33,684 nucleotides of DNA from an archaeon (GTDB lineage Archaea; Nanobdellota; Nanobdellia; Woesearchaeales; GW2011-AR9): NCBI GenBank assembly GCA_002688265.1, contig NZCK01000007.1, positions 1-33,684 on the forward strand, written 5' to 3'. Below, piece by piece: positions 2,458-25,393 of this stretch; position 1 is the stretch's first letter, and each line of letters starts with the position of its first letter. A program made the position numbers and the translations under genes. Below the pieces are notes generated by a model, which was given only the letters and a program-made list of their open reading frames with translations, searched no databases and was not told where the DNA came from.

Positions 2458-3222
2458 TTATTGCTCATTATTAATCTCTCCACTTGCAACATTCCATAAA
2501 TGTTCAAAGTGGCTTCTGTATGTTTCAGCAATAGATTCGTTTTTTATCATTACTGCAGTTACTGGTGTACCCCATGTAACAATAACAACTTTTCTTCCAT
2601 AAACAAATGTATTAGTTGGATTAAATTGCTTTTCTTTTAAGAATCTATAATTAGTAGTGGGAGCTAAGTCTTTTTCAAACAGAAAAACCCCAAGTTTTTT
2701 CATTGTGATTACTCTCTCTTTGATATTATTTTTCCTAAGATCTCTAAAATATTGTTTCATGAATATCGGAAGAGCATCTTGATATTTTTGATCATCAATA
2801 CCAGTAATCAAAACTTCTTGTTTTGCTTTAATAATATCTTTAAGGAAATATTTTAATCCCTCTTTTCCCTTAAAGACTTCTACAAAGGTATCTTCTTTAG
2901 GAATCTTGGTCATAGCTTCTAATTCTGGGATAATACTATCTACTTCCTGTTCTTGAATTTCTAACTTTCTCTTTTGGTCCTCAATATATTGCTTTATTTT
3001 GCTTGGATGAGTGGCTTGAAAGTACTTCTTAGCACCCCTGTAAATATGTGTAACTAAACCCTTATCCATCAATTGTTCCAACTTATCATAAACATGAACC
3101 CGATAAATGCCTGTTTGTTTGCCTATCTCATAGGCTGTGCTAGAGCCAGATTTAAGCAGATTTAGGTATATTTTGATCTCATTCTCTGTTAAACCTACCT
3201 TTCGCAATATTTCTATGTCCAT
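2458..3222 (-). CDS. TrmB-family transcriptional regulator
   Basis: N-terminal wHTH (LRKVGLTENEIKIYLNLLKSGSSTAYEIGKQTGIYRVHVYDKLEQLMDKGLV) plus C-terminal effector domain (FVEVFKGKEGLKYFLKDII...EVLITGID), typical of TrmB. Leaderless start likely (TATA-like tttaaatat on minus, ~3243-3252). Confidence 0.88.
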   Translation of the reverse strand: MDIEILRKVGLTENEIKIYLNLLKSGSSTAYEIGKQTGIYRVHVYDKLEQLMDKGLVTHIYRGAKKYFQATHPSKIKQYIEDQKRKLEIQEQEVDSIIPELEAMTKIPKEDTFVEVFKGKEGLKYFLKDIIKAKQEVLITGIDDQKYQDALPIFMKQYFRDLRKNNIKERVITMKKLGVFLFEKDLAPTTNYRFLKEKQFNPTNTFVYGRKVVIVTWGTPVTAVMIKNESIAETYRSHFEHLWNVASGEINNEQ

Positions 3223-3256: not shown

Positions 3257-3275
3257 TCGTACCAATTTGATACGA
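3257..3275. promoter_or_regulatory. 19-bp near-perfect palindrome, candidate operator of the divergent TrmB regulator
   Basis: TCGTACCAATTTGATACGA: 8 of 9 symmetric pairs match; located between the two divergent TATA-like elements. Confidence 0.6.
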
Positions 3276-3338
3276 CAAGCATTAATATATTTCAATGGTT
3301 ACTACTGATGTATGATAACAAATAAAGAGGAATATAAA

Positions 3339-4319
3339 ATGGACAACAATAATGTTGCTTACAAAACAAAATCAGCACTAAATCTGGGTGGTGAGCAAAC
3401 AAACAGATTAATGCTTGTTTTAAGGACACCTCCATGCGAGTACAATCAATGTACAATGTGTGGTTTTGATAATAATGCTGGAAAAAAAGTTAAGCTCTGG
3501 AACATTAAAAGACAGTATCAAAATGGTGTTTCTGAAGAGGATTTTTCAGATATAAGAAGAATTGATTTTCCAACTGCTGGCTCATTTTATAATGATAGAG
3601 AACTATCCCCAGAATCAAGGAATTACTTATTTTCTGAAGTTAGCAAACTTCCAGTAGATTCAGTAATGGTTGAAACTAGAGTTGATTATCTTACAGAAGA
3701 AAAGGTCAGAGAATCTAAAAGATATCTAAGAGATGATCAGAGTATTGAACTTGCAATTGGACTTGAAAGTTCGGATGATGATATCAGAAATAAAGTATTG
3801 AGAAAAGGTTTGAGTAAAAAAAGCTTTGAAAGATTTGCAGACATCTGTAAAAATACAGATTCGCCATTGTTGGCATACATCTTGATCAAATCCCCAACAT
3901 TATCAGAAGCTGAAGCAGTACAAGATGCCGTTCAAACTGCTGATTATGTTTACAAAATTGCCAATGAAAGAGGCATCAAAGCTAGAGTTGCTTTCAAGCC
4001 AATGTTTATTCCTGAAGGGACTGAACTTGAAGGCCAATATCTTAGTGGAGAATATAAACTGCCTAAATTATGGACCACAATTGAAACTGTAAAAAGAACT
4101 TCTCAATTGGCAAGCTATCAACCAGATTCAATATTTGTTGGTATGTTTGATGAAGATCTGTCAGGAGATCGGTTCTCAAGCAATTGTGGTGGATGTAATT
4201 CAGAAGTAGTTGAAGCGCTAAAGAAATTCAATGGAACACAGGAGTTGTTTGAATTAGAAAAATTAAGTTGTGAATGTAAAACAGAATGGGAATTAGAAGT
4301 TATAGGTGAATTACAATGA
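3339..4319 (+). CDS. radical SAM protein, RaSEA (archaeosine)/Elp3-like family
   Basis: CX4CX2C (CEYNQCTMCGF), FPTAGSFYNDRELSP, VETRVDYLTEEKV, AIGLESSDDDIRNKVLRKG, C-terminal CGGC and CECKTEWE cysteines. ATG at 3339 preceded by AAAGAGG; the 3312 start is less likely. Confidence 0.82.
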   Translation: MDNNNVAYKTKSALNLGGEQTNRLMLVLRTPPCEYNQCTMCGFDNNAGKKVKLWNIKRQYQNGVSEEDFSDIRRIDFPTAGSFYNDRELSPESRNYLFSEVSKLPVDSVMVETRVDYLTEEKVRESKRYLRDDQSIELAIGLESSDDDIRNKVLRKGLSKKSFERFADICKNTDSPLLAYILIKSPTLSEAEAVQDAVQTADYVYKIANERGIKARVAFKPMFIPEGTELEGQYLSGEYKLPKLWTTIETVKRTSQLASYQPDSIFVGMFDEDLSGDRFSSNCGGCNSEVVEALKKFNGTQELFELEKLSCECKTEWELEVIGELQ

Positions 4320-4792
4320 AGGAATACATAGACGCTTCTTTATTCCTAGGAATGCATAGCGCTGATGAAAAAACAAGAGTTGCTTGTAAAAATTACTTTG
4401 TTACTAGACTGAATGACCAAGTTGGAATGAGTTTAGAACAAGTAGGTAAATGCGACGAAGTTATCTGGCAATATCAAAGAGATGAACAAGATGCCTACTA
4501 TCCATTCATGGATAATCTTCACACAATAATGGATATTCAAAGAAAGGGTTACCATGAAAAAGATATCCAAGAAGCAACAACAAATCCAGACTTACAGGAT
4601 TTAAGCATTGCAAATAGATTGACTTTGGGGATGGTAATTTCACGAGGAGCAGAATTGTATTCAGTGAATCCAGAATTAGCTGAAAAGGATTATGTTCGTT
4701 CTCCAGAAACAGGTGAAGAACTTTCCTTCCCACAACCTTTGGAAGAGATGTATCAGCAATCTTTGGAGGTGAGAGTATGTACTCAGGAATAA
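4316..4792 (+). CDS. uncharacterised 158-aa protein (possible PIN-like fold; possibly DUF6190-like)
   Basis: ATGA overlap with the upstream gene; GGTGA SD. N-terminal YIDASLFLGMHS and ANRLTLGMVISRGAELYSVNPEL are vaguely PIN-like. Family assignment is from memory and unverified. Confidence 0.6.
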   Translation: MKEYIDASLFLGMHSADEKTRVACKNYFVTRLNDQVGMSLEQVGKCDEVIWQYQRDEQDAYYPFMDNLHTIMDIQRKGYHEKDIQEATTNPDLQDLSIANRLTLGMVISRGAELYSVNPELAEKDYVRSPETGEELSFPQPLEEMYQQSLEVRVCTQE

Positions 4793-5550
4793 TTCCCCCT
4801 TTAGTAACTCCAGTAGATTACGACGGGAATGTTTGCGAACAAAGTGTAAAGAATCTTATTGATTTTGTTAGACCATTCTCCACTGCTTTGATGCCAACAT
4901 TAAGTTCAGGAGAAGGTTGGGCTTTGAACGATTGGCAATGGAAAGACATGATTAAATTTACAATCAAACATGCTTCAGGTTTGCCTGTCTTAGCAGGAGT
5001 GGAATACAAGACAACAGAAGAAGTTGTAGAAAAAGCACGAAGAGCACAAAGACTTGGTGTTGATGCTGTAGTAATTACTACACCATTTGAAAAAGACATC
5101 ACACAAGATGAGATTTACCAACACTTTTTACAAGTAAGGGAAGTAGGTGTTCCAGTACTTATTTACAACGAAGAAGCAATCTCTGGAAATTCCATAGAAT
5201 ATGGAACTATTGAAAGAATTTGTGGATTAGGAAACATTGTCGGGATAAAAGAAGCTAGTGGTTCTGCTAGTTTCACAAAAAGAATTGTTGATTCTGGATT
5301 AGACATTCCTGTGTTTCAAGGATGGGAACATCTTTGTTATCAATCTAAAGGAGTGGATGGATACATCGTACCTTTAGCTAATTTGGAACCAGAAGTATGT
5401 TCAGAGATGTTAAGAGACCCCACTGCTAAAAAGCAGAGCAGAATTGATTCTCTTTGTAAGAGGTATAACATTCTAGGTGAAGATTGGTATGTTTTCTTGA
5501 AAAAAGAACTGCAGCAAAGAGGAACAATAACAACTATGAGAGTGATCTAA
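4777..5550 (+). CDS. DapA/DHDPS-N-acetylneuraminate lyase family aldolase
   Basis: MYSGIIPPLVTPVDYDGNVCEQSVKNLIDF, ADAVVITTPF-type strand, VLIYNEEAISGNS, Schiff-base segment NIVGIKEASGS; perfect SD GGAGGTGA at 4765-4772 inside the upstream gene. Confidence 0.88.
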   Translation: MYSGIIPPLVTPVDYDGNVCEQSVKNLIDFVRPFSTALMPTLSSGEGWALNDWQWKDMIKFTIKHASGLPVLAGVEYKTTEEVVEKARRAQRLGVDAVVITTPFEKDITQDEIYQHFLQVREVGVPVLIYNEEAISGNSIEYGTIERICGLGNIVGIKEASGSASFTKRIVDSGLDIPVFQGWEHLCYQSKGVDGYIVPLANLEPEVCSEMLRDPTAKKQSRIDSLCKRYNILGEDWYVFLKKELQQRGTITTMRVI

Positions 5551-6621
5551 ATGACAGATAAACTTAGACAAAATAATTGTAATGAGTTGCATATCAGCTA
5601 TGATTCTGGCTCAGGTTGTACGTTTGTTATTGCTCTTAATACAACCTATCACAATAAAGGTAATGGTGGAACCAGAATGAAGAATTACTCTTCTATTGAA
5701 GAAGGTATCGAAGATGCTTTAAGATTAGCAAATGCTATGACCAAAAAATGTGTTGTAATTGGTGATAGGGACAATGGAAAATTTAGTGGAGCAAAAGGAG
5801 TAATCATTGGAGATCCTGCAACACAAAAAACTCCTGAAATGCTAAGAAGCTATGGGCGATTTGTCCAATCCTTAAATGGCAGATTTCAAACTGGTTGTGA
5901 TATGAACATATCTCCTAGCGACCTAGAGTATATGGCAGAAGAAACTCAATATGTCGACGGACTTCCATCGATTGGAATAGGTGATGGAGGAGAAGCTACC
6001 GCATATGGAGTAGTTGTTGCAATGAAAACGCTTTGTGAACAAAAGTATGGAAGTAGTAATTTGAAAGACAGAGTTATTGTTGTTCAAGGTGTTGGAAGTG
6101 TTGGTTCAGATTTAGTTAGAAGATTAACTGAAGAAGGAGCAGAAGTAATTGTAACAGATGTTGATTCCAATAGATTGAGATCTGTTGTGGACCAATATGG
6201 AGTAAAGAGTGTAAGTTCGGAAGAAGCATATTCTGTTAGTTGCGATATCTTCTCACCAAACGCTTGTGGAGATGTTTTGACAGCTGAGAACATAGGTAGG
6301 TTAGATTGTGATTTGGTTATTGGTGCTGCTAACAATCCTTTGTTGGATGGTTTAGAATCTGTTAAACAAATGCAAGAAAGGGGAATTGTTTTTGCACCAG
6401 ATTATGTGGTCAATATTGGAGCACAAGTATTAGCTATCTGTGAAGTTGAAGGAAAAAGTATTGATTTTGCTTATAGTAGAATTCAAGATATTATCCAGAA
6501 AAGACTTGGACAGATTAGTTTGCAGGATCAAACAATGTATGAAGTTGCAGAGAGATTAGTACTTCAAGAAATGCTAAGAACAAAACTTTCACAGACAAGT
6601 ATTACTGAGGTGAAAAGATGA
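5551..6621 (+). CDS. Leu/Glu/Phe/Val-type amino acid dehydrogenase
   Basis: GGTRM, MTKKC...GAKGVIIGDP (catalytic Lys segment), CDMNISPSDLEYMAEETQYV, VVQGVGSVGSDLVRRL (Rossmann), IGAANNPL, VFAPDYVVNIGA, all leucine-dehydrogenase-like. Confidence 0.9.
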   Translation: MTDKLRQNNCNELHISYDSGSGCTFVIALNTTYHNKGNGGTRMKNYSSIEEGIEDALRLANAMTKKCVVIGDRDNGKFSGAKGVIIGDPATQKTPEMLRSYGRFVQSLNGRFQTGCDMNISPSDLEYMAEETQYVDGLPSIGIGDGGEATAYGVVVAMKTLCEQKYGSSNLKDRVIVVQGVGSVGSDLVRRLTEEGAEVIVTDVDSNRLRSVVDQYGVKSVSSEEAYSVSCDIFSPNACGDVLTAENIGRLDCDLVIGAANNPLLDGLESVKQMQERGIVFAPDYVVNIGAQVLAICEVEGKSIDFAYSRIQDIIQKRLGQISLQDQTMYEVAERLVLQEMLRTKLSQTSITEVKR

Positions 6622-7010
6622 AAAGGTATCAGAGAGTTGTTGTCGGAGGATTGTTAATAGCTGGAAGTCTTGGATTATTCGGTTGTTCAGATGACACTCC
6701 AACAGTTACAAATAAAGTAAAACTTGGTATGGGCCAACCATATGTGGCAGTTGGTGATGTAACAGGTGATGGAAAAAGAGATATTGTTTATGGAGACAAA
6801 AAAGGAGTTCATTATTTAGAAAACCTAGGTGATGGCAAATTTGATGAACCAGTTAAAGTCGGTGGCGATTATAATCTTGGTCATGGTCAAATCCCTGTTG
6901 CAGTTGGAGATGTTACTGGCGATGGTTTAGAAGACATTGTCATTGGAAAAAAATCAGGAATCTCTGTTTTAGAAAACCAAGGAGAAGGGAAATTTAAGCC
7001 ATTAGAATAA
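6618..7010 (+). CDS. small lipoprotein with two FG-GAP/VCBS-type repeats
   Basis: Lipobox-like LGLFGC after signal peptide; two VAVGDVTGDGxxDIVxG repeats (DxTGDGxxD). ATGA overlap with upstream CDS and GAGGTGA SD. Confidence 0.8.
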   Translation: MKRYQRVVVGGLLIAGSLGLFGCSDDTPTVTNKVKLGMGQPYVAVGDVTGDGKRDIVYGDKKGVHYLENLGDGKFDEPVKVGGDYNLGHGQIPVAVGDVTGDGLEDIVIGKKSGISVLENQGEGKFKPLE

Positions 7011-18120: not shown

Positions 18121-19275
18121 TTAATACTTTGCTTTGGAAACTTTTCTTAAAGAATTAATTGTTCGAATAAGTGTTTTAGCTACTAAATCTAAGTCTGTTG
18201 CCGTTGTACTTTCTCCTAAACTGATACGAATACTACTTTGTATACGATACTCATCTAAACCCATAGCCTCTAAGACATGAGAAGATTTGACTGTGCCTGC
18301 CGAACAAGCGCTCCCACTAGAGACAAAAATTCCTTGGCTGCTTAAAGTTAATACCAATGTCTCGGCATCGACACCTAAAAAAGAAAAATTGAGATTATTT
18401 GGAAGTCTTTTGCCCAAGTGTCCATTATAATAACTGTCAGGAATGGAATTAAGGATTTTATCTTTAAATTTTGTTTGCAAAACAGTTAAACGCTTTGATT
18501 CTTTTGTTTTTTCAAGTTCTGAAAGTTGTAAGCTTAAAGCAAAGCCAACAACCCCAGGAACATTCAAAGTTCCTGCCCGAAGTGCGTGTTCTTGCTTTCC
18601 ACCAAAAACTAAAGGCTTTATTTTTATTCCATCTTTAATGTAAAGAAGAGCTATTCCCTTGGGACCATATATTTTGCTAGAGTTAAGTGTCAATAAGTCA
18701 ACACCTAGTTTTTTAACATTGATATCTAAATAATTTGGTGCTTGACAAGCGTCAACATGAAAAAGCAATTTATAACGAGTTGTGACTTTGGAAATTTCTT
18801 TAATAGGATTAATGGTTCCAACTTCGTTGTTGGCGTACACAAGTGAGACCAAAATTGTGTTCTCTTGAATAGCTGATTCAACTTGACTAGCAGAAATTAA
18901 TCCAGTGCTGCTAGGATCCAAATAAGTTACTTGAAAACCTTGACCTTCCAACCATTCTGAGCAGCGTAAAGTAGCTGCATGTTCAGCTCGACTGGTAATT
19001 ATATGCCCCTTGCCTTTGGCTCTCGCAATCCCTTGAATTGCTAAATTAATACTCTCGCTCCCACAACTTGTAAAAACTATTTCTGAATTATCACAATCTA
19101 AAATCCTTGCAATCTTGTTTCTGGCTGTAGCCACTGCTAAACCAGCTTCTTCACCAAACTTATGAATACTACTAGGATTTGCAAACTGTTTTGAAAAATA
19201 AGGTTTCATTTCAGCAAGCACTTCTTTTCTTACAGGAGTAGCAGCAGCATAATCCAAATATATTGATTTTGACAT
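18121..19275 (-). CDS. cysteine desulfurase, NifS/IscS type
   Basis: YLDYAAATPVRKEVL, NSSKIYGPKGIALLYI, SSGSACSAG catalytic loop. Confidence 0.93.
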   Translation of the reverse strand: MSKSIYLDYAAATPVRKEVLAEMKPYFSKQFANPSSIHKFGEEAGLAVATARNKIARILDCDNSEIVFTSCGSESINLAIQGIARAKGKGHIITSRAEHAATLRCSEWLEGQGFQVTYLDPSSTGLISASQVESAIQENTILVSLVYANNEVGTINPIKEISKVTTRYKLLFHVDACQAPNYLDINVKKLGVDLLTLNSSKIYGPKGIALLYIKDGIKIKPLVFGGKQEHALRAGTLNVPGVVGFALSLQLSELEKTKESKRLTVLQTKFKDKILNSIPDSYYNGHLGKRLPNNLNFSFLGVDAETLVLTLSSQGIFVSSGSACSAGTVKSSHVLEAMGLDEYRIQSSIRISLGESTTATDLDLVAKTLIRTINSLRKVSKAKY

Positions 19276-19451
19276 TGAAGAGTTATTCTTGCTCTCTTTT
19301 AATTAATTTTTCTAATTATTTTTGAGATAAACGGTTTCTCTTATTTCTTTTACTATTTTAGAAAAAACAGACAAAAAATAATTAAATGATAAGAGATTTC
19401 ATAAATACATTGGAGTTAATAGATTTTTACAACTAATAGGAGGGGTTTGAT

Positions 19452-20378
19452 ATGAAGAAAAAAATTGGATTAATAATAGTATTTTCTATGATAGTTGGTT
19501 TGCTTGCAAGTCTCGCATTAGCAACACCATTACTTGACAATGATATGTTAAATGAAATCGTTGAGATCGAATCAAATAACATTGGATTTGAATTGCCTGG
19601 GGGATATGAACCTAGTGGGGCAGTGTGGAATCCTTTGCAAGAAAAACTGTACATTGTAAGTGATGATGGTGAAATTAGTTCAATGGATTCAAATGGAGAA
19701 AATTTGGAAAATTTTTATGTGGGTGGAGATCTAGAAGGCGTAACCATCACAAAGCCTAGACGAGATTACCTTTATGTGCTGGTAGAAAGCCCAGATACAA
19801 TTAAAGAATTTTCTTTGGAAACTGAATCTTTCACAGGTAAACAATGGACATTAACCAGTTGGCTTCACGGATCAGATAACCAAGGCGCAGAAGCTATTAC
19901 ATGGATTCCAAAAAGACATCACAACTTTGATGTCTCTGGCGGCGTGTTTGCAGTGGGACTGCAAGAAGATGGAAAAGTATATTTTTTCTCAGTTGACTTA
20001 AGATCAAGTGAATCTGTAGAATATTTAGATTCAATGAACATTGAATTTGAAGGAAGGACAATTGGGTCTGATATCTCAGGAATGCAGTATAACAGAGTTT
20101 CAAGAACATTGTTTGTGATTGCAGATTCTTACAACTCATTGGTGGGTTTACAATTAGATCGAGACAGTGGTGAATGGGAAGAAGTTGCAGAATATTCTTT
20201 GCCAGGAAATAACCAAGAAGGAATCACTTTTATGTTGAATGGAGATGATGCAACTGGATCAATGTTTGTAGCTGAAGATGACGAAGAATTATATCGTTAT
20301 GATGTCTCCATTGTTGATAACATTATCGAAGAATATGTCTTAGATTGGTTTGAAAGTTTGACTGGACATAGAAGATAA
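19452..20378 (+). CDS. secreted SdiA-regulated/esterase-like beta-propeller protein
   Basis: Signal peptide; EPSGAVWNPLQEKLYIVSDDGEIS, DLEGVTI, DISGMQYNRVSRTLFVIAD, NQEGITF...MFVAEDDEELYRY; SD AGGAGGGG upstream. Confidence 0.75.
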   Translation: MKKKIGLIIVFSMIVGLLASLALATPLLDNDMLNEIVEIESNNIGFELPGGYEPSGAVWNPLQEKLYIVSDDGEISSMDSNGENLENFYVGGDLEGVTITKPRRDYLYVLVESPDTIKEFSLETESFTGKQWTLTSWLHGSDNQGAEAITWIPKRHHNFDVSGGVFAVGLQEDGKVYFFSVDLRSSESVEYLDSMNIEFEGRTIGSDISGMQYNRVSRTLFVIADSYNSLVGLQLDRDSGEWEEVAEYSLPGNNQEGITFMLNGDDATGSMFVAEDDEELYRYDVSIVDNIIEEYVLDWFESLTGHRR

Positions 20379-20407
20379 TTTTTTGTTTTTATTTTTTTAA
20401 TTATTTC

Positions 20408-20698
20408 TTACATTCCCAACATATCTCTTAGCTCATCTGTTGGTTTCCAAGGAGGATCAAAAACTACATCTATGTCAACTTTGGTGGCACCCTTGTACTT
20501 AATCATTTGCTTAAGGTCTTCAATCATCTCCGGGCCGAAAGGACAAGTTGGTGAAGTGAAAGTTATTTTTAGATGCACTGTGTTTTCGTCTACAATATCT
20601 ATTTGATAAATCAACCCCAAAGACCAAACATCTATTCCTAATTCAGGATCTTCATAATGTTTACAAACTTCGATTACTTGCTCTTTTGTTATTGCCAT
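20408..20698 (-). CDS. sufT: DUF59/MIP18 family Fe-S assembly protein (SufT/PaaD-like)
   Basis: EDPELGIDVWSLGLIYQIDI...LKITFTSPTCPFGPEM...VDIDVVFDPPW. Confidence 0.9.
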   Translation of the reverse strand: MAITKEQVIEVCKHYEDPELGIDVWSLGLIYQIDIVDENTVHLKITFTSPTCPFGPEMIEDLKQMIKYKGATKVDIDVVFDPPWKPTDELRDMLGM

Positions 20699-20713
20699 TT
20701 TATTAATTTATTA

Positions 20714-21496
20714 TTAATTATTTGATTGCTCGTTAACAAACTGATTAAAACCCTTCTCTTGAATCTTTTTTGCAAGCTCCTTAGATCCTTGCTGAATAAT
20801 TTTCCCATTACAAAGAACCGTAACTTTATCTGGAGATAGCTCCCTCATGAAATGTTCATAATGCGTGATTAAAATTATTCCCATAGGTGAATCTTTTCTT
20901 GCAATATGAATTGCTTTAGCAACAGCCTTAATCCCATCTACATCTAAACCGGAATCTGTCTCATCTAAAATCGCAAACACAGGCTTCAGAAGTAAAAGTT
21001 GTAACATTTCACTTCGTTTTTTTTCTCCACCACTAAAACCAGAGTTTAAATCTCGAGTTCGAAATTTAGGATCCATGTCAAGCAGTTCCATCTTTTCTTT
21101 TAATAATTTGTAAGAATCTATCACAGAAAGTTTTTCTTGTCCTTCACGCTCACGCTTCGTGTTAATTGCCTCCCTTAAAAAATTGCTAATTGTTACACCA
21201 GCAACTTCTGCAGGATACTGAAACGAAAGAAATAAACCTAAATCAGCTCGTTCTTTAACGGAATAATTTGTTATATCTTGACCATTAAATAAAATCTTCC
21301 CTTTAGTGATTTTGTATTTTGGATGACCCATAATCGCGTTAGCTAAAGTGCTCTTGCCAGAACCATTAGGACCCATGATAGCGTGAACATTACCTGATTC
21401 GAAATCAAGAGTAATGCCATGCAAAATCTCTTTTCCTTCAACTTCGACATGAAGATTCTTAATTTTCAAAGTTTGTATTTCTTTTGTAGTTTCCAT
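20714..21496 (-). CDS. sufC: Fe-S cluster assembly ATPase SufC
   Basis: IMGPNGSGKSTLANAIMGHPKY (Walker A), LFLSFQYPAEVAGVTISNFLR, FSGGEKKRSEMLQLLLLKPVFAILDETDSGLDVD. Confidence 0.96.
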   Translation of the reverse strand: METTKEIQTLKIKNLHVEVEGKEILHGITLDFESGNVHAIMGPNGSGKSTLANAIMGHPKYKITKGKILFNGQDITNYSVKERADLGLFLSFQYPAEVAGVTISNFLREAINTKREREGQEKLSVIDSYKLLKEKMELLDMDPKFRTRDLNSGFSGGEKKRSEMLQLLLLKPVFAILDETDSGLDVDGIKAVAKAIHIARKDSPMGIILITHYEHFMRELSPDKVTVLCNGKIIQQGSKELAKKIQEKGFNQFVNEQSNN

Positions 21497-21533
21497 TTTT
21501 GTTTATGATATTTTGTACATTTATTATTAATGA

Positions 21534-21944
21534 TTATTCTAAAGCTTTTTTTAATGTAGTTAATGACAATAAAGCGCATTTTCTTCGAGTGTGGCTGATT
21601 GGAATTCCCAGTAGTTCATAAATGTCAGACTCTGTAAGTTTTAATGCATCAGTTACTTTCTTTCCTTTAATTGCATCTGTTAAAAGTGAAATAGATGCTT
21701 GCGAAATTGCACACCCATCACCTTCAAAACTAACATCAGTTATTGTATCGTTTGTTACATGTAGATAAATTACTATATGATCACCACACATTGGATTGAT
21801 TCCTTTTTCTGTGTGAGTTGAATTTTTAAGCTTACACTTGTTGTGCGGGTTTTTATAGTGATCAATAATATTCTCTTTGTAAATTTCTTGCTCTTCAGTG
21901 AGCTGGTCTTGTTCTGACATATCCGTAGGATTGCTTATTTGCAT
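21534..21944 (-). CDS. sufU: SufU/NifU-like scaffold or sulfur-relay protein
   Basis: HYKNPHNKCKL, NPMCGDHIVIYL, FEGDGCAISQASISLLTDAIKGK, RRKCALLSLTTLKKAL. Confidence 0.92.
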   Translation of the reverse strand: MQISNPTDMSEQDQLTEEQEIYKENIIDHYKNPHNKCKLKNSTHTEKGINPMCGDHIVIYLHVTNDTITDVSFEGDGCAISQASISLLTDAIKGKKVTDALKLTESDIYELLGIPISHTRRKCALLSLTTLKKALE

Positions 21945-23188
21945 TATCTTTTATCTCCGGTTGATACTTTGAATATTTTCTGAGCTTCTTGAACTCCTTT
22001 GATTAATTTATCTATATCTTCTTTACTATTGTAAACATACAAGGATGCGCGACTAGCCCCATTAAAACCTAATTTTTGAAACAAAGGCATAGCACAATGA
22101 TGACCTCCTCGAATTGCAACACCTTGACTGTTAAGTATTTCTCCTACATCATGTGGATGTATTCCCTCAACAATAAATGAAAAAATCGGGGCACGCATTT
22201 TTGTGTTTGCTGAGCCTAATATTTTGACACCAGGAATTTTGCTTAATTTTTCTAACCCATAATTTGTTAGTTCTTGCATCTGTTTCTCAACATTTCGCAT
22301 TCCAATTTTTGTTAAATATTGGATCGCGGCAGCTAAACCTACTGCTCCTGCTACATTTGGTGTGCCAGCCTCAAACTTGTAAGGGATATCATTCCAAGTA
22401 GATTCTTTCTTTGTAACTTCCAAAATCATTCCACCACCAGTGTGAGATGGAGGAAGTTGTTTTAGAAGTTTAGACTTGCCAAACAAAACACCTACTCCCA
22501 TTGGACCTAAGGTTTTGTGTCCAGAAAATGCTAAAAAGTCACAACCTAAGTCTTTAACATCAACTGTTATGTGTGGCACAGATTGAGCAGCGTCAACCAC
22601 AACTAAAGTATTAGGGTTGATACTACGGATGGTTTGAATTATTTCTTTAACTGGATTAATTGTTCCTAAAACATTGGAAACATGAGTCAAGGAAACTATT
22701 TTAGTTTTATTTGAGATTAATTGAGGCAACGTCGTTAGATCTAAACGATAATCAGAATTTATTGGAAGCCATTTGATTATTGCTCCTGTTTGTTTTGCAA
22801 TAAGTTGCCAAGGCACAATATTAGAATGATGCTCCATTTCTGTTAGAATAATTTCATCACCTTCTTTCAGTTTTGATCTTAGTGACAAAGCTAACTTGTT
22901 AAGTGCATCAGTTGTACCACTTGTGAAAATAATTTCTTCTGTTTTGGCATTGATGAATTTAGCTACAACACCCCTGGCATGTTCATACTGAATAGTTGCT
23001 CTACTGGCTAATTCATGAACGCTACGGTGCGTGTTGGAATTGCTGGTTTGATAGTACTTATTTATTGCATCAATTACTACTTGCGGTTTTTGTGTGGTAG
23101 CTCCGTTATCTAAATAGCATAATGGTTTCCCTTTGACTGTTTGCTTCAAAATTGGAAAATCTTTTTTGATTTGGTCTGCTGTTTTCAT
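21944..23188 (-). CDS. sufS: cysteine desulfurase SufS
   Basis: CYLDNGATTQKPQVVIDA, FTSGTTDALN, FSGHKTLGPMGVGVLFG, RGGHHCAMPL. Confidence 0.95.
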   Translation of the reverse strand: MKTADQIKKDFPILKQTVKGKPLCYLDNGATTQKPQVVIDAINKYYQTSNSNTHRSVHELASRATIQYEHARGVVAKFINAKTEEIIFTSGTTDALNKLALSLRSKLKEGDEIILTEMEHHSNIVPWQLIAKQTGAIIKWLPINSDYRLDLTTLPQLISNKTKIVSLTHVSNVLGTINPVKEIIQTIRSINPNTLVVVDAAQSVPHITVDVKDLGCDFLAFSGHKTLGPMGVGVLFGKSKLLKQLPPSHTGGGMILEVTKKESTWNDIPYKFEAGTPNVAGAVGLAAAIQYLTKIGMRNVEKQMQELTNYGLEKLSKIPGVKILGSANTKMRAPIFSFIVEGIHPHDVGEILNSQGVAIRGGHHCAMPLFQKLGFNGASRASLYVYNSKEDIDKLIKGVQEAQKIFKVSTGDKR

Positions 23189-23943
23189 TTTAGATTTATA
23201 CCTAATTTTTGATTGATTGATTTATCTACTTCTTGATAAATTTCTGGTTCTGCTTGCTTTATTGATATTAATTCTTGCATTAAAAGGCCATGTAAAACCA
23301 TGGATTTGGCAGTTGCTTCTGCTATTCCTCGAGATTGCAGGTAAAATATATTTTCCTCTTCTACTCGTCCAATTGCTACACCATGACTACAAACCACAGT
23401 ATCACTTTGAACATCTAATATTGGAAGAGCTTTACATTTTGTATTGTCTCCTTGAGTTAAACATTTCATGTTTTGATGGCTTTCAATATTTTTAATATTT
23501 TTTGGTACTGAGATCTTTGCAATAAAATCTGCTTTTGAATTTTCTTGTAAAACTCCTCTGCAGATGAGATCCCCTTTAGTGTTGTCTGCATGATGCCAAA
23601 CCTTTGTTTTAATTGTGATCTCTTCATCCTTAGATCCAAAAAAGATTACTGTGCTTTTAGCAGACGAATTGTTACCTTTGAGATATATTTCTTGATCCAA
23701 TGAAAAAATTCCTTCTGTTATAATTATATCAATAACATTTAGATTACTGTTCTCTTTTAAAGTGAAATTGGTTTTGATCGTTTTTTCTAATTGATCTTTT
23801 GATTCATGAATTAGGATAATTGTTGCTTTAGAATTTTTGTTTAATTTAATCTCTAGTGTCTTGAAATCCTTTGGAAGTTCATCTACTCTGATTACTTTAA
23901 ATTCTGAAGTGTTCTCTTCAATTATAAATTCTACTTTTGACAT
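23185..23943 (-). CDS. sufD: SufD-like Fe-S assembly protein
   Basis: C-terminal LPILDVQSDTVVCSHGVAIGRVEEENIFYLQSRGIAEATAKSMVLHGLL is SufB/D core; short version. Confidence 0.88.
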   Translation of the reverse strand: MSKVEFIIEENTSEFKVIRVDELPKDFKTLEIKLNKNSKATIILIHESKDQLEKTIKTNFTLKENSNLNVIDIIITEGIFSLDQEIYLKGNNSSAKSTVIFFGSKDEEITIKTKVWHHADNTKGDLICRGVLQENSKADFIAKISVPKNIKNIESHQNMKCLTQGDNTKCKALPILDVQSDTVVCSHGVAIGRVEEENIFYLQSRGIAEATAKSMVLHGLLMQELISIKQAEPEIYQEVDKSINQKLGINLK

Positions 23944-23953
23944 TTTTATTTTA

Positions 23954-25393
23954 TTACATCCCTTCTACTTCTAACTCAATTAATTTGTTTAATTCAATTG
24001 CATACTCCAAAGGGAGAGCTTTTACTATCGGTGAAATAAATCCCCCCACAATTACTTTGATTGCCTGTTCTTCAGAGAGGCCTCTGCTTTGCAAGTAAAA
24101 TAATTGCTCCTCACTAACTTTACTGACACTAGCTTCGTGACCGACCCTGCTTGTTGGGGAATTAATAGACATGGCGGGGAAGGTTTTTGATACTGACTTG
24201 TCATCTAATAAAAGCGCGTCACATTGAACATTGCTTTTGATATTTTTTGCGTTAGGTGTAACTTTAACCAATCCTCTGTAACTTGAAATTCCCCCATCTT
24301 TACTAATGCTCTTTGCTTTGATAATTGAAGTTGTATTGCTTGCAGCGTGAATCACTTTACTCCCTGTATCTTGATCTTGCTCATTTCCAGCAAAGGCTAT
24401 TCCTAAACTTTCACTGTGAGCATTTTCCCCGATAAGAATTGAACAAGGATAAAGCATAGTTTTTTGGCTTCCCATATTGCCATTAGTCCAGATCATTTTA
24501 GCATTTCTGTTTACCAATGCCCGTTTAGTGTTTAAATTGTAAACATTTCTGCTCCAATTTTCAATACTGGTATAACGCATTGTGGCTCCTTCCTTCACGA
24601 AAATTTCAACACAACCTGCATGTAAGCTGCTTTGTTGGTATCTAGGACTAGAACAACCTTCAATGTAATGCAATTCTGCACCCTCATCAACAATAATTAA
24701 GGTGTGTTCAAACTGTCCTCCTTGTTTACCATTCATTCGAAAATAAGCTTGCAAAGGAAGATCAACTTTGATGTTTTTTGGAATGTAAATAAATGTCCCT
24801 CCACTCCAAACCGCAGCATGCAACATGACAAATTTGTGGTCGTTAACAGGAATGCAACTAGTCATAAAATGTTTTTTTACTAAGTCTGGGTATTTGTGGA
24901 TTGCCACATCCATGTTTTCAAAAATAACTCCTTGGTCTTTTAGTTTCTTTTGAAGATTGTGATAAACCATTCCACTATCATACTGAGCACCAACTCCTGC
25001 TAAAGCTTTTTTCTCGGCTTCAGGAATTCCTAATTTTTCAAAAGTTTCTTTAATTTCGTCAGGTACTTGATCCCAAGAATTTGTTTCGGTTGCGTTAGGG
25101 TCAATAAAATATATTATTTTGTTGAGGTCGAGTTCGCTTAAATCTGGACCCCAAGTAGGGATTGCTGTTTTCTGAAAAAGTTTGAAAGCCTTTAATCGTA
25201 TATTTAACATCCACTCTGGTTCCTGTTTTGTATTAGAGATTAACCTTACAATCTGTTCATTAATCCCTGGATTAGCTATGAATTTAGGGCTGTGGTCATC
25301 AGCTGTGTCATAGATGTCTCTATTGATGTCTACATTTATCGTTTTAGATTTATGTTCTTTACCCTTTGATTTTTTATTTGAAGAATTTGACAT
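23954..25393 (-). CDS. sufB: Fe-S cluster assembly protein SufB
   Basis: EPEWMLNIRLKAFKLF, WSGGTFIYIPKNIKVDLPLQAYFRMN, EGCSSPRYQQSSLHAGCVEIFVKEGA, VGHEASVSKVSEEQLFYLQSRGLSEEQA. Confidence 0.97.
   Translation of the reverse strand: MSNSSNKKSKGKEHKSKTINVDINRDIYDTADDHSPKFIANPGINEQIVRLISNTKQEPEWMLNIRLKAFKLFQKTAIPTWGPDLSELDLNKIIYFIDPNATETNSWDQVPDEIKETFEKLGIPEAEKKALAGVGAQYDSGMVYHNLQKKLKDQGVIFENMDVAIHKYPDLVKKHFMTSCIPVNDHKFVMLHAAVWSGGTFIYIPKNIKVDLPLQAYFRMNGKQGGQFEHTLIIVDEGAELHYIEGCSSPRYQQSSLHAGCVEIFVKEGATMRYTSIENWSRNVYNLNTKRALVNRNAKMIWTNGNMGSQKTMLYPCSILIGENAHSESLGIAFAGNEQDQDTGSKVIHAASNTTSIIKAKSISKDGGISSYRGLVKVTPNAKNIKSNVQCDALLLDDKSVSKTFPAMSINSPTSRVGHEASVSKVSEEQLFYLQSRGLSEEQAIKVIVGGFISPIVKALPLEYAIELNKLIELEVEGM

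Follow-up and report, generated by a model that had tools for sequence, protein, structure and literature searches.

We analyzed a stretch of 33,684 nucleotides from a woesearchaeal archaeon (GenBank assembly GCA_002688265.1, contig NZCK01000007.1, positions 1 to 33,684 of the forward strand; hereafter the window) and found on its plus strand four adjacent genes that encode a radical S-adenosylmethionine (SAM) enzyme, orthologs of the azomycin enzymes RohQ and RohR, and an amino-acid dehydrogenase (AADH). We propose, at roughly even odds (about 0.5), that this operon is a self-contained, horizontally mobile cassette that turns arginine into 2-aminoimidazole without oxygen. With slightly less assurance, we further propose that the radical SAM enzyme and AADH together replace the O2-dependent RohP and oxidize arginine by four electrons to 4-hydroxy-2-ketoarginine; the operon would then be an anaerobic 2-aminoimidazole route in DPANN archaea. 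An original prediction, made from the sequence before any database search, had placed these genes in one candidate, undescribed amino-acid-derived pathway.

The second open reading frame (ORF) of the operon (4316-4792, 158 aa), a protein of no known function in the original prediction, is a RohQ. It matched PF19689 (DUF6190) with 206.8 bits against a cut-off of 25 (E 3e-61), and its sole strong relatives in the PDB are 9c5w ("Cyclodehydratase RohQ", E 9.1e-30) and 9oq8 (E about 1e-29), both named RohQ. The third ORF (4777-5550, 257 aa) codes for a member of the DapA/NAL superfamily (PF00701, E 1e-34). A GTDB scan with the window RohQ found 56 rohQ loci, nearly all with a DapA-family gene directly after rohQ; because this gene recurs beside RohP, including in the azomycin producer, we identified the third ORF as RohR. 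When conserved residues were counted as positions kept in at least 92% of the retained bacterial homologs, the alignments showed that the archaeal RohQ retains 35 of 36 and the archaeal RohR 32 of 35, among them Glu46, Tyr130, and the Schiff-base lysine, Lys158, within the GIKEAS segment that had been recognized from the start. In phylogenetic trees, the archaeal RohQ groups in one clade with Nostoc and with a rohQ locus of another type (L013, see below), while the archaeal RohR is monophyletic and nested among the bacterial RohRs. Taken as predictions from sequence, both assignments are well supported. A role of the third ORF as the DapA of lysine biosynthesis, already doubted in the original prediction, was ruled out by its score with TIGR00674 (110.3 bits, below the cut-off of 206.15) together with the rohQ linkage. 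No report on DUF6190, archaeal RohQ, or radical SAM clusters of Woesearchaeota was found in the literature searched.

2-Aminoimidazole is the core of the antibiotic azomycin (2-nitroimidazole), and the intermediates of the azomycin pathway are reportedly 4-hydroxy-2-ketoarginine and guanidinoacetaldehyde. The former is also the proposed intermediate of the RohP/MppP route, whose pyridoxal phosphate (PLP)-dependent arginine oxidases are, with the guanidine-ring pathways (enduracididine, guanitoxin), among the nearest known systems. The reconstituted azomycin route runs from arginine through RohP (an O2- and PLP-dependent arginine oxidase), RohR (a retro-aldolase), and RohQ (a cyclodehydratase) to 2-aminoimidazole and then RohS (PMC10724926), and the producer is S. 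eurocidicus ATCC 27428 (PMC12713392). The presence of RohP and RohR at the loci was confirmed by tblastn. A RohP homolog of the MppP family lies directly upstream in 50 of the 53 bacterial rohQ loci fetched, and the rohQ-rohR pair adjoins rohP in S. eurocidicus ATCC 27428 (L020, L054) and in Pseudomonas (L051, L056), so that the tie to actinobacterial biosynthetic clusters raised by the original prediction was found. The archaeal genes resemble rohPQRST of these bacteria in that orthologous rohQ and rohR are adjacent, in the same order, with their residues kept, in a small self-contained operon. They differ in that RohP and RohS are absent, a radical SAM enzyme and an enzyme of the leucine dehydrogenase fold are present, the regulator is of the TrmB type, and the host is an archaeon; the two enzymes proposed in place of the MppP/RohP-type oxidase are unrelated to it. 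RohP had no match in the window genome (G000), in G052, G082, G086, G227, and G232, or in the archaeal rohQ loci, a genome search run without a positive-control genome, which counts against the proposal, although the same query does find the 50 bacterial loci. A RohS-type N-oxygenase (PF14518 HDO) was not found in the five genomes with the radical SAM type of operon and was present only in G232.

Other arrangements of roh genes were also seen. S. eurocidicus ATCC 27428 has two separate rohP-rohQ-rohR loci (L020, L054) with different neighbors. At three Nostoc loci (L006, L007, L009), rohQ has neither rohP nor rohR beside it and is flanked by genes for a PRMT-like methyltransferase and an HDO-Rieske fusion; downstream lie a class-V aminotransferase-like gene and DUF6014.

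The proposed pathway would begin with AADH, which may oxidatively deaminate L-arginine (or 4-hydroxyarginine) with NAD(P)+. The radical SAM enzyme would abstract a side-chain hydrogen for a second two-electron oxidation, for example a 3,4-desaturation followed by hydration. In this or the opposite order, the two steps would jointly yield 4-hydroxy-2-ketoarginine, the product of the O2/PLP enzyme RohP in bacteria. RohR would then cleave this compound by a retro-aldol reaction to pyruvate and guanidinoacetaldehyde, and RohQ would cyclodehydrate the latter to 2-aminoimidazole, the presumed end product; since no RohS is present, the pathway would stop short of azomycin. Woesearchaeota are assumed to be anaerobic, and the whole route could operate without oxygen.

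The radical SAM enzyme (3339-4319, 326 aa) belongs to a RaSEA-like, TIGR01210-related group; its start is at 3339 and not at 3312, as homologs begin at the equivalent position. TIGR01210 (RaSEA) was its best family model, with 176.6-176.8 bits, below the cut-off of 212.15, and the AlphaFold model (pLDDT 89) matched Elp3, AprD4, and viperin, so the RaSEA/Elp3 likeness noticed earlier was recovered; the structural matches are generic to radical SAM proteins and carry no functional assignment. The cluster motif is CX4CX2C, and the alignment shows conserved C-terminal cysteines (Cys283, Cys286, Cys311, and Cys313, a CxxC...CxC pattern) common to RaSEA-like proteins. By contrast, the spacing is CX8CX2C in the RaSEA-like comparators L069 and L070, whose own status as RaSEAs is unverified, and L097, which has the CX4CX2C spacing, scores just high enough for the TIGR01210 cut-off. 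The best model, the radical SAM core, and these cysteines are what would be expected if the protein were the archaeosine enzyme RaSEA and its neighbors coincidental. We give that reading next to no credence: the score is under the family cut-off, the gene is linked to rohQ-rohR rather than to arcS or TGT, the gene order is kept across distant families, and TGT was not found in three carrier genomes, G000, G052, and G086 (the last two 95-96% complete), although G082 does carry it. As TGT is missing from these three, archaeosine is not the purpose of the operon; with the sub-cut-off score, this ruled out the archaeosine reading, which the original prediction had likewise set aside. We propose that the radical SAM enzyme is a putative O2-independent C-H oxidation catalyst.

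Related radical SAM enzymes occur in other cassettes. At L121:3822-8055 and L097:2297-6626, a cousin RaSEA-like enzyme (35% identical) is divergent from a TrmB-type regulator; the next genes encode a SPASM radical SAM protein and a methyltransferase, PrmA/PRMT-like, which resembles the one in actinobacterial and Nostoc roh loci. A further cassette with a TrmB-type regulator and a RaSEA-like enzyme (L122:5428-9569, G241:C19) also holds an AdoMet decarboxylase-like protein, a TrpB-like PLP enzyme, and a QueC-like protein.

AADH (5551-6621, 356 aa; PF00208, PF02812) has the fold of leucine, phenylalanine, and tryptophan dehydrogenases. It matched leucine dehydrogenase (LeuDH) 6acf by sequence (E 2.7e-64) and 8gxd by fold (TM-score 0.87), and the catalytic residues Lys66, Lys82, Asp117, and Asn262 are all intact, as the catalytic segments picked out in the original prediction had implied. 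Identity to these dehydrogenases (6acf, 8gxd, and the tryptophan dehydrogenase 5b37) is about 35%; the pocket residues and a loop insertion by the catalytic lysine differ, and no specificity can be assigned. Four residues of the hydrophobic LeuDH pocket, which lines the leucine side chain, give way to polar or smaller ones (L40 to N, A113 to G, V291 to Q, and V294 to A), and a DxDNG loop is inserted before the catalytic GAK segment. These changes suggest a larger and polar substrate, arginine not being proven; we propose that AADH is an arginine or hydroxyarginine dehydrogenase.

The operon is not confined to the window genome, a 1.07 Mb draft (84.7% complete) whose nearest operon-bearing relatives are Woesearchaeota. 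The order radical SAM-DUF6190-DapA-LeuDH was found in four Woesearchaeotal genomes, including that of the window, and radical SAM-DapA-LeuDH without DUF6190 in a fifth (G227, locus L119); because of this recurrence, the adjacency is more than chance, and the failure to co-occur that would have made the neighbors coincidental was not seen. Among 382 genomes drawn from the phylum, five encode DUF6190 and five a close radical SAM homolog (at least 80% identity), with four genomes shared and one on each side alone (Fisher p 3e-8). At a further locus (G029, L120), rohR-AADH lies at a contig end, so that the upstream part is unseen. Between genomes, the operon proteins share 69-87% identity where the prolyl-tRNA synthetases share 35-61%, and the genes flanking the operon differ between families. 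Since the operon identity is far above that of the synthetase and the flanks differ, horizontal transfer between families of DPANN archaea is indicated by these sequence comparisons. Comparison of synonymous and non-synonymous changes showed purifying selection on every gene, with omega of about 0.08-0.25 for the operon genes. The synonymous divergence (dS) of the regulator between genomes is mostly 1-4.6, often far above the values of about 0.5-1.5 seen for the operon genes, though protein identities are alike. Carriage by plasmids, phages, or viruses was rejected: no DUF6190 was seen in plasmids, no radical SAM homolog in phages, and no relatives of RohR, RohQ, or the radical SAM enzyme in viral contigs.

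The fifth operon (L119:5018-8691, G227:C4) bears on the order of the steps. It carries a clean deletion of rohQ with the scar ATGAAG|ATGTAT, in which the first two rohQ codons are fused to the start of rohR; as this scar remains, rohQ must have been present ancestrally. DUF6190 was not found anywhere in G227, and the radical SAM enzyme, RohR, and AADH left behind are 78-83% identical to their window counterparts. This loss places the three enzymes upstream of RohQ or independent of it, and it can be read to mean that they precede RohQ, with a last step that happens spontaneously or can be dispensed with.

The same loss, however, could point to a core product other than 2-aminoimidazole, and other points also weigh against the proposal. 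Both oxidation roles are drawn from sequence and genomic context, and we know of no radical SAM route that leads to 4-hydroxy-2-ketoarginine. Although the pocket of AADH is polar, no clear acidic site for the guanidinium group is demonstrated in it; a bacterial invariant of RohR two residues from the Schiff-base lysine is changed (S160 to A); and a use of 2-aminoimidazole by an archaeon is not apparent.

Three other readings can be set against these data. The genes might work in the synthetic direction, much along the lines of the original prediction: the radical SAM enzyme would make an aldehyde or modified precursor, its condensation with pyruvate by RohR would give a 4-hydroxy-2-oxo acid, and reductive amination of this acid by AADH would lead to a non-standard amino acid of guanidino or cyclic type. 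RohQ would be an accessory cyclodehydratase. Both aldolases and amino-acid dehydrogenases can run in reverse, the conserved operon ends with AADH, and G227 keeps the other three genes without rohQ, so a core without the cyclodehydratase can function. Nevertheless, RohR and RohQ keep almost all invariants of the bacterial retro-aldol and cyclization pair, rohQ is present in four of the five complete operons and was ancestral in the fifth, and nothing evident would supply the aldehyde. We retain this as a minority alternative, one of the two chief rivals together with a shifted substrate (below), but an unlikely one; given the identity of RohQ and RohR, the most likely chemistry is a retro-aldol cleavage on the way from arginine to 2-aminoimidazole, not the aldol synthesis of a new 2-oxo acid and its reductive amination.

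A different amino acid might be oxidized by AADH and the radical SAM enzyme to another 4-hydroxy-2-oxo acid, with the specificity of RohR and RohQ shifted. The polar, not obviously acidic pocket, the serine replacement in RohR, and the separate clade that the archaeal RohQ forms with Nostoc and L013 would fit, but the high conservation of the RohQ and RohR invariants makes this improbable. RaSEA turns a lysine-amidine adduct into archaeosine (PMC11298593). By extension from this chemistry, amidine or guanidine groups may be substrates of related enzymes, and the cousin enzymes do occur in different cassettes; 2-aminoimidazole could then be made from a precursor supplied otherwise and be tailored or attached by the radical SAM enzyme and AADH, giving a 2-aminoimidazole-containing metabolite. 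However, neither RohP nor any other source of 4-hydroxy-2-ketoarginine was found in these genomes, and the two enzymes outlast the loss of rohQ in G227, which would be unexpected if they acted after RohQ; this seems to us quite improbable.

A regulator accompanies the arginine-to-2-aminoimidazole cassette that we favor. The window encodes a TrmB-family transcriptional regulator (2458-3222, minus strand; PF01978, E 6.7e-18) divergent from the operon, and homologs 84-89% identical are divergent from the radical SAM gene at L002, L003, L065, and L119, so that a regulator partners all five loci; it also adjoins the rohQ of L013. Between regulator and radical SAM gene lies a palindrome, TCGTAC-N7-(G/A)TACGA (3257-3275), which is perfect as TCGTAC-N7-GTACGA in five relatives including L013 and has one mismatch in the window, where 0.01 sites would be expected by shuffling. 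From its sequence and position, we infer that it is an operator, to which the regulator would bind to control the unit. A wider regulon was not seen: there is one site per genome, and further one-mismatch matches are no commoner than those of a reversed-pattern control. The L013 locus (L013:3488-6474, G232:C20) has this regulator and a perfect copy of the operator, yet in place of the radical SAM, rohR, and AADH genes it carries a DUF3865 HDO-fold gene, and RohR had no match in G232. This suggests that the regulator tracks a rohQ-linked pathway rather than one particular oxidation enzyme, and L013 is possibly a third way of feeding RohQ.

The coupling of the genes was as first described. Five plus-strand ORFs at 3339-7010 are all open, without internal stops; neighbors overlap at 4316/4319, 4777/4792, and 6618/6621, rohR and AADH abut at 5550/5551, and Shine-Dalgarno sites of the AGGTGA/GAGGTGA type precede rohQ, rohR, and the fifth gene. 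The four biosynthetic genes recur together as the original prediction of a single unit required, but the fifth ORF (6618-7010, 130 aa), an FG-GAP-repeat lipoprotein (PF13517, E 1.9e-15), lies outside the conserved unit, to which the regulator and operator, omitted at the time, belong. The lipoprotein is translationally coupled here yet co-linear in the window genome only: it was not found after AADH at L002, L003, L065, or L119, the four other operons, and was ruled out as a pathway member. Elsewhere in the window (18121-25393), the translations reveal a SUF-type gene cluster for Fe-S assembly along with two genes resembling cysteine desulfurases, as would fit a cell that supplies enzymes with Fe-S clusters.

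If the proposal holds, this would be, as far as the literature searched shows, the first pathway to 2-aminoimidazole in an archaeon and the first case in which an oxygen-independent system replaces an arginine oxidase of the RohP/MppP type, and a four-electron oxidation of arginine would be chemistry new for radical SAM enzymes. With only four small genes, it is directly testable in E. coli under anoxia. It would also give a function to one of the small RaSEA-like radical SAM enzymes that are otherwise annotated "archaeosine" by default, and the operon is an example of a small specialized-metabolism cassette passing between families of reduced-genome DPANN archaea.

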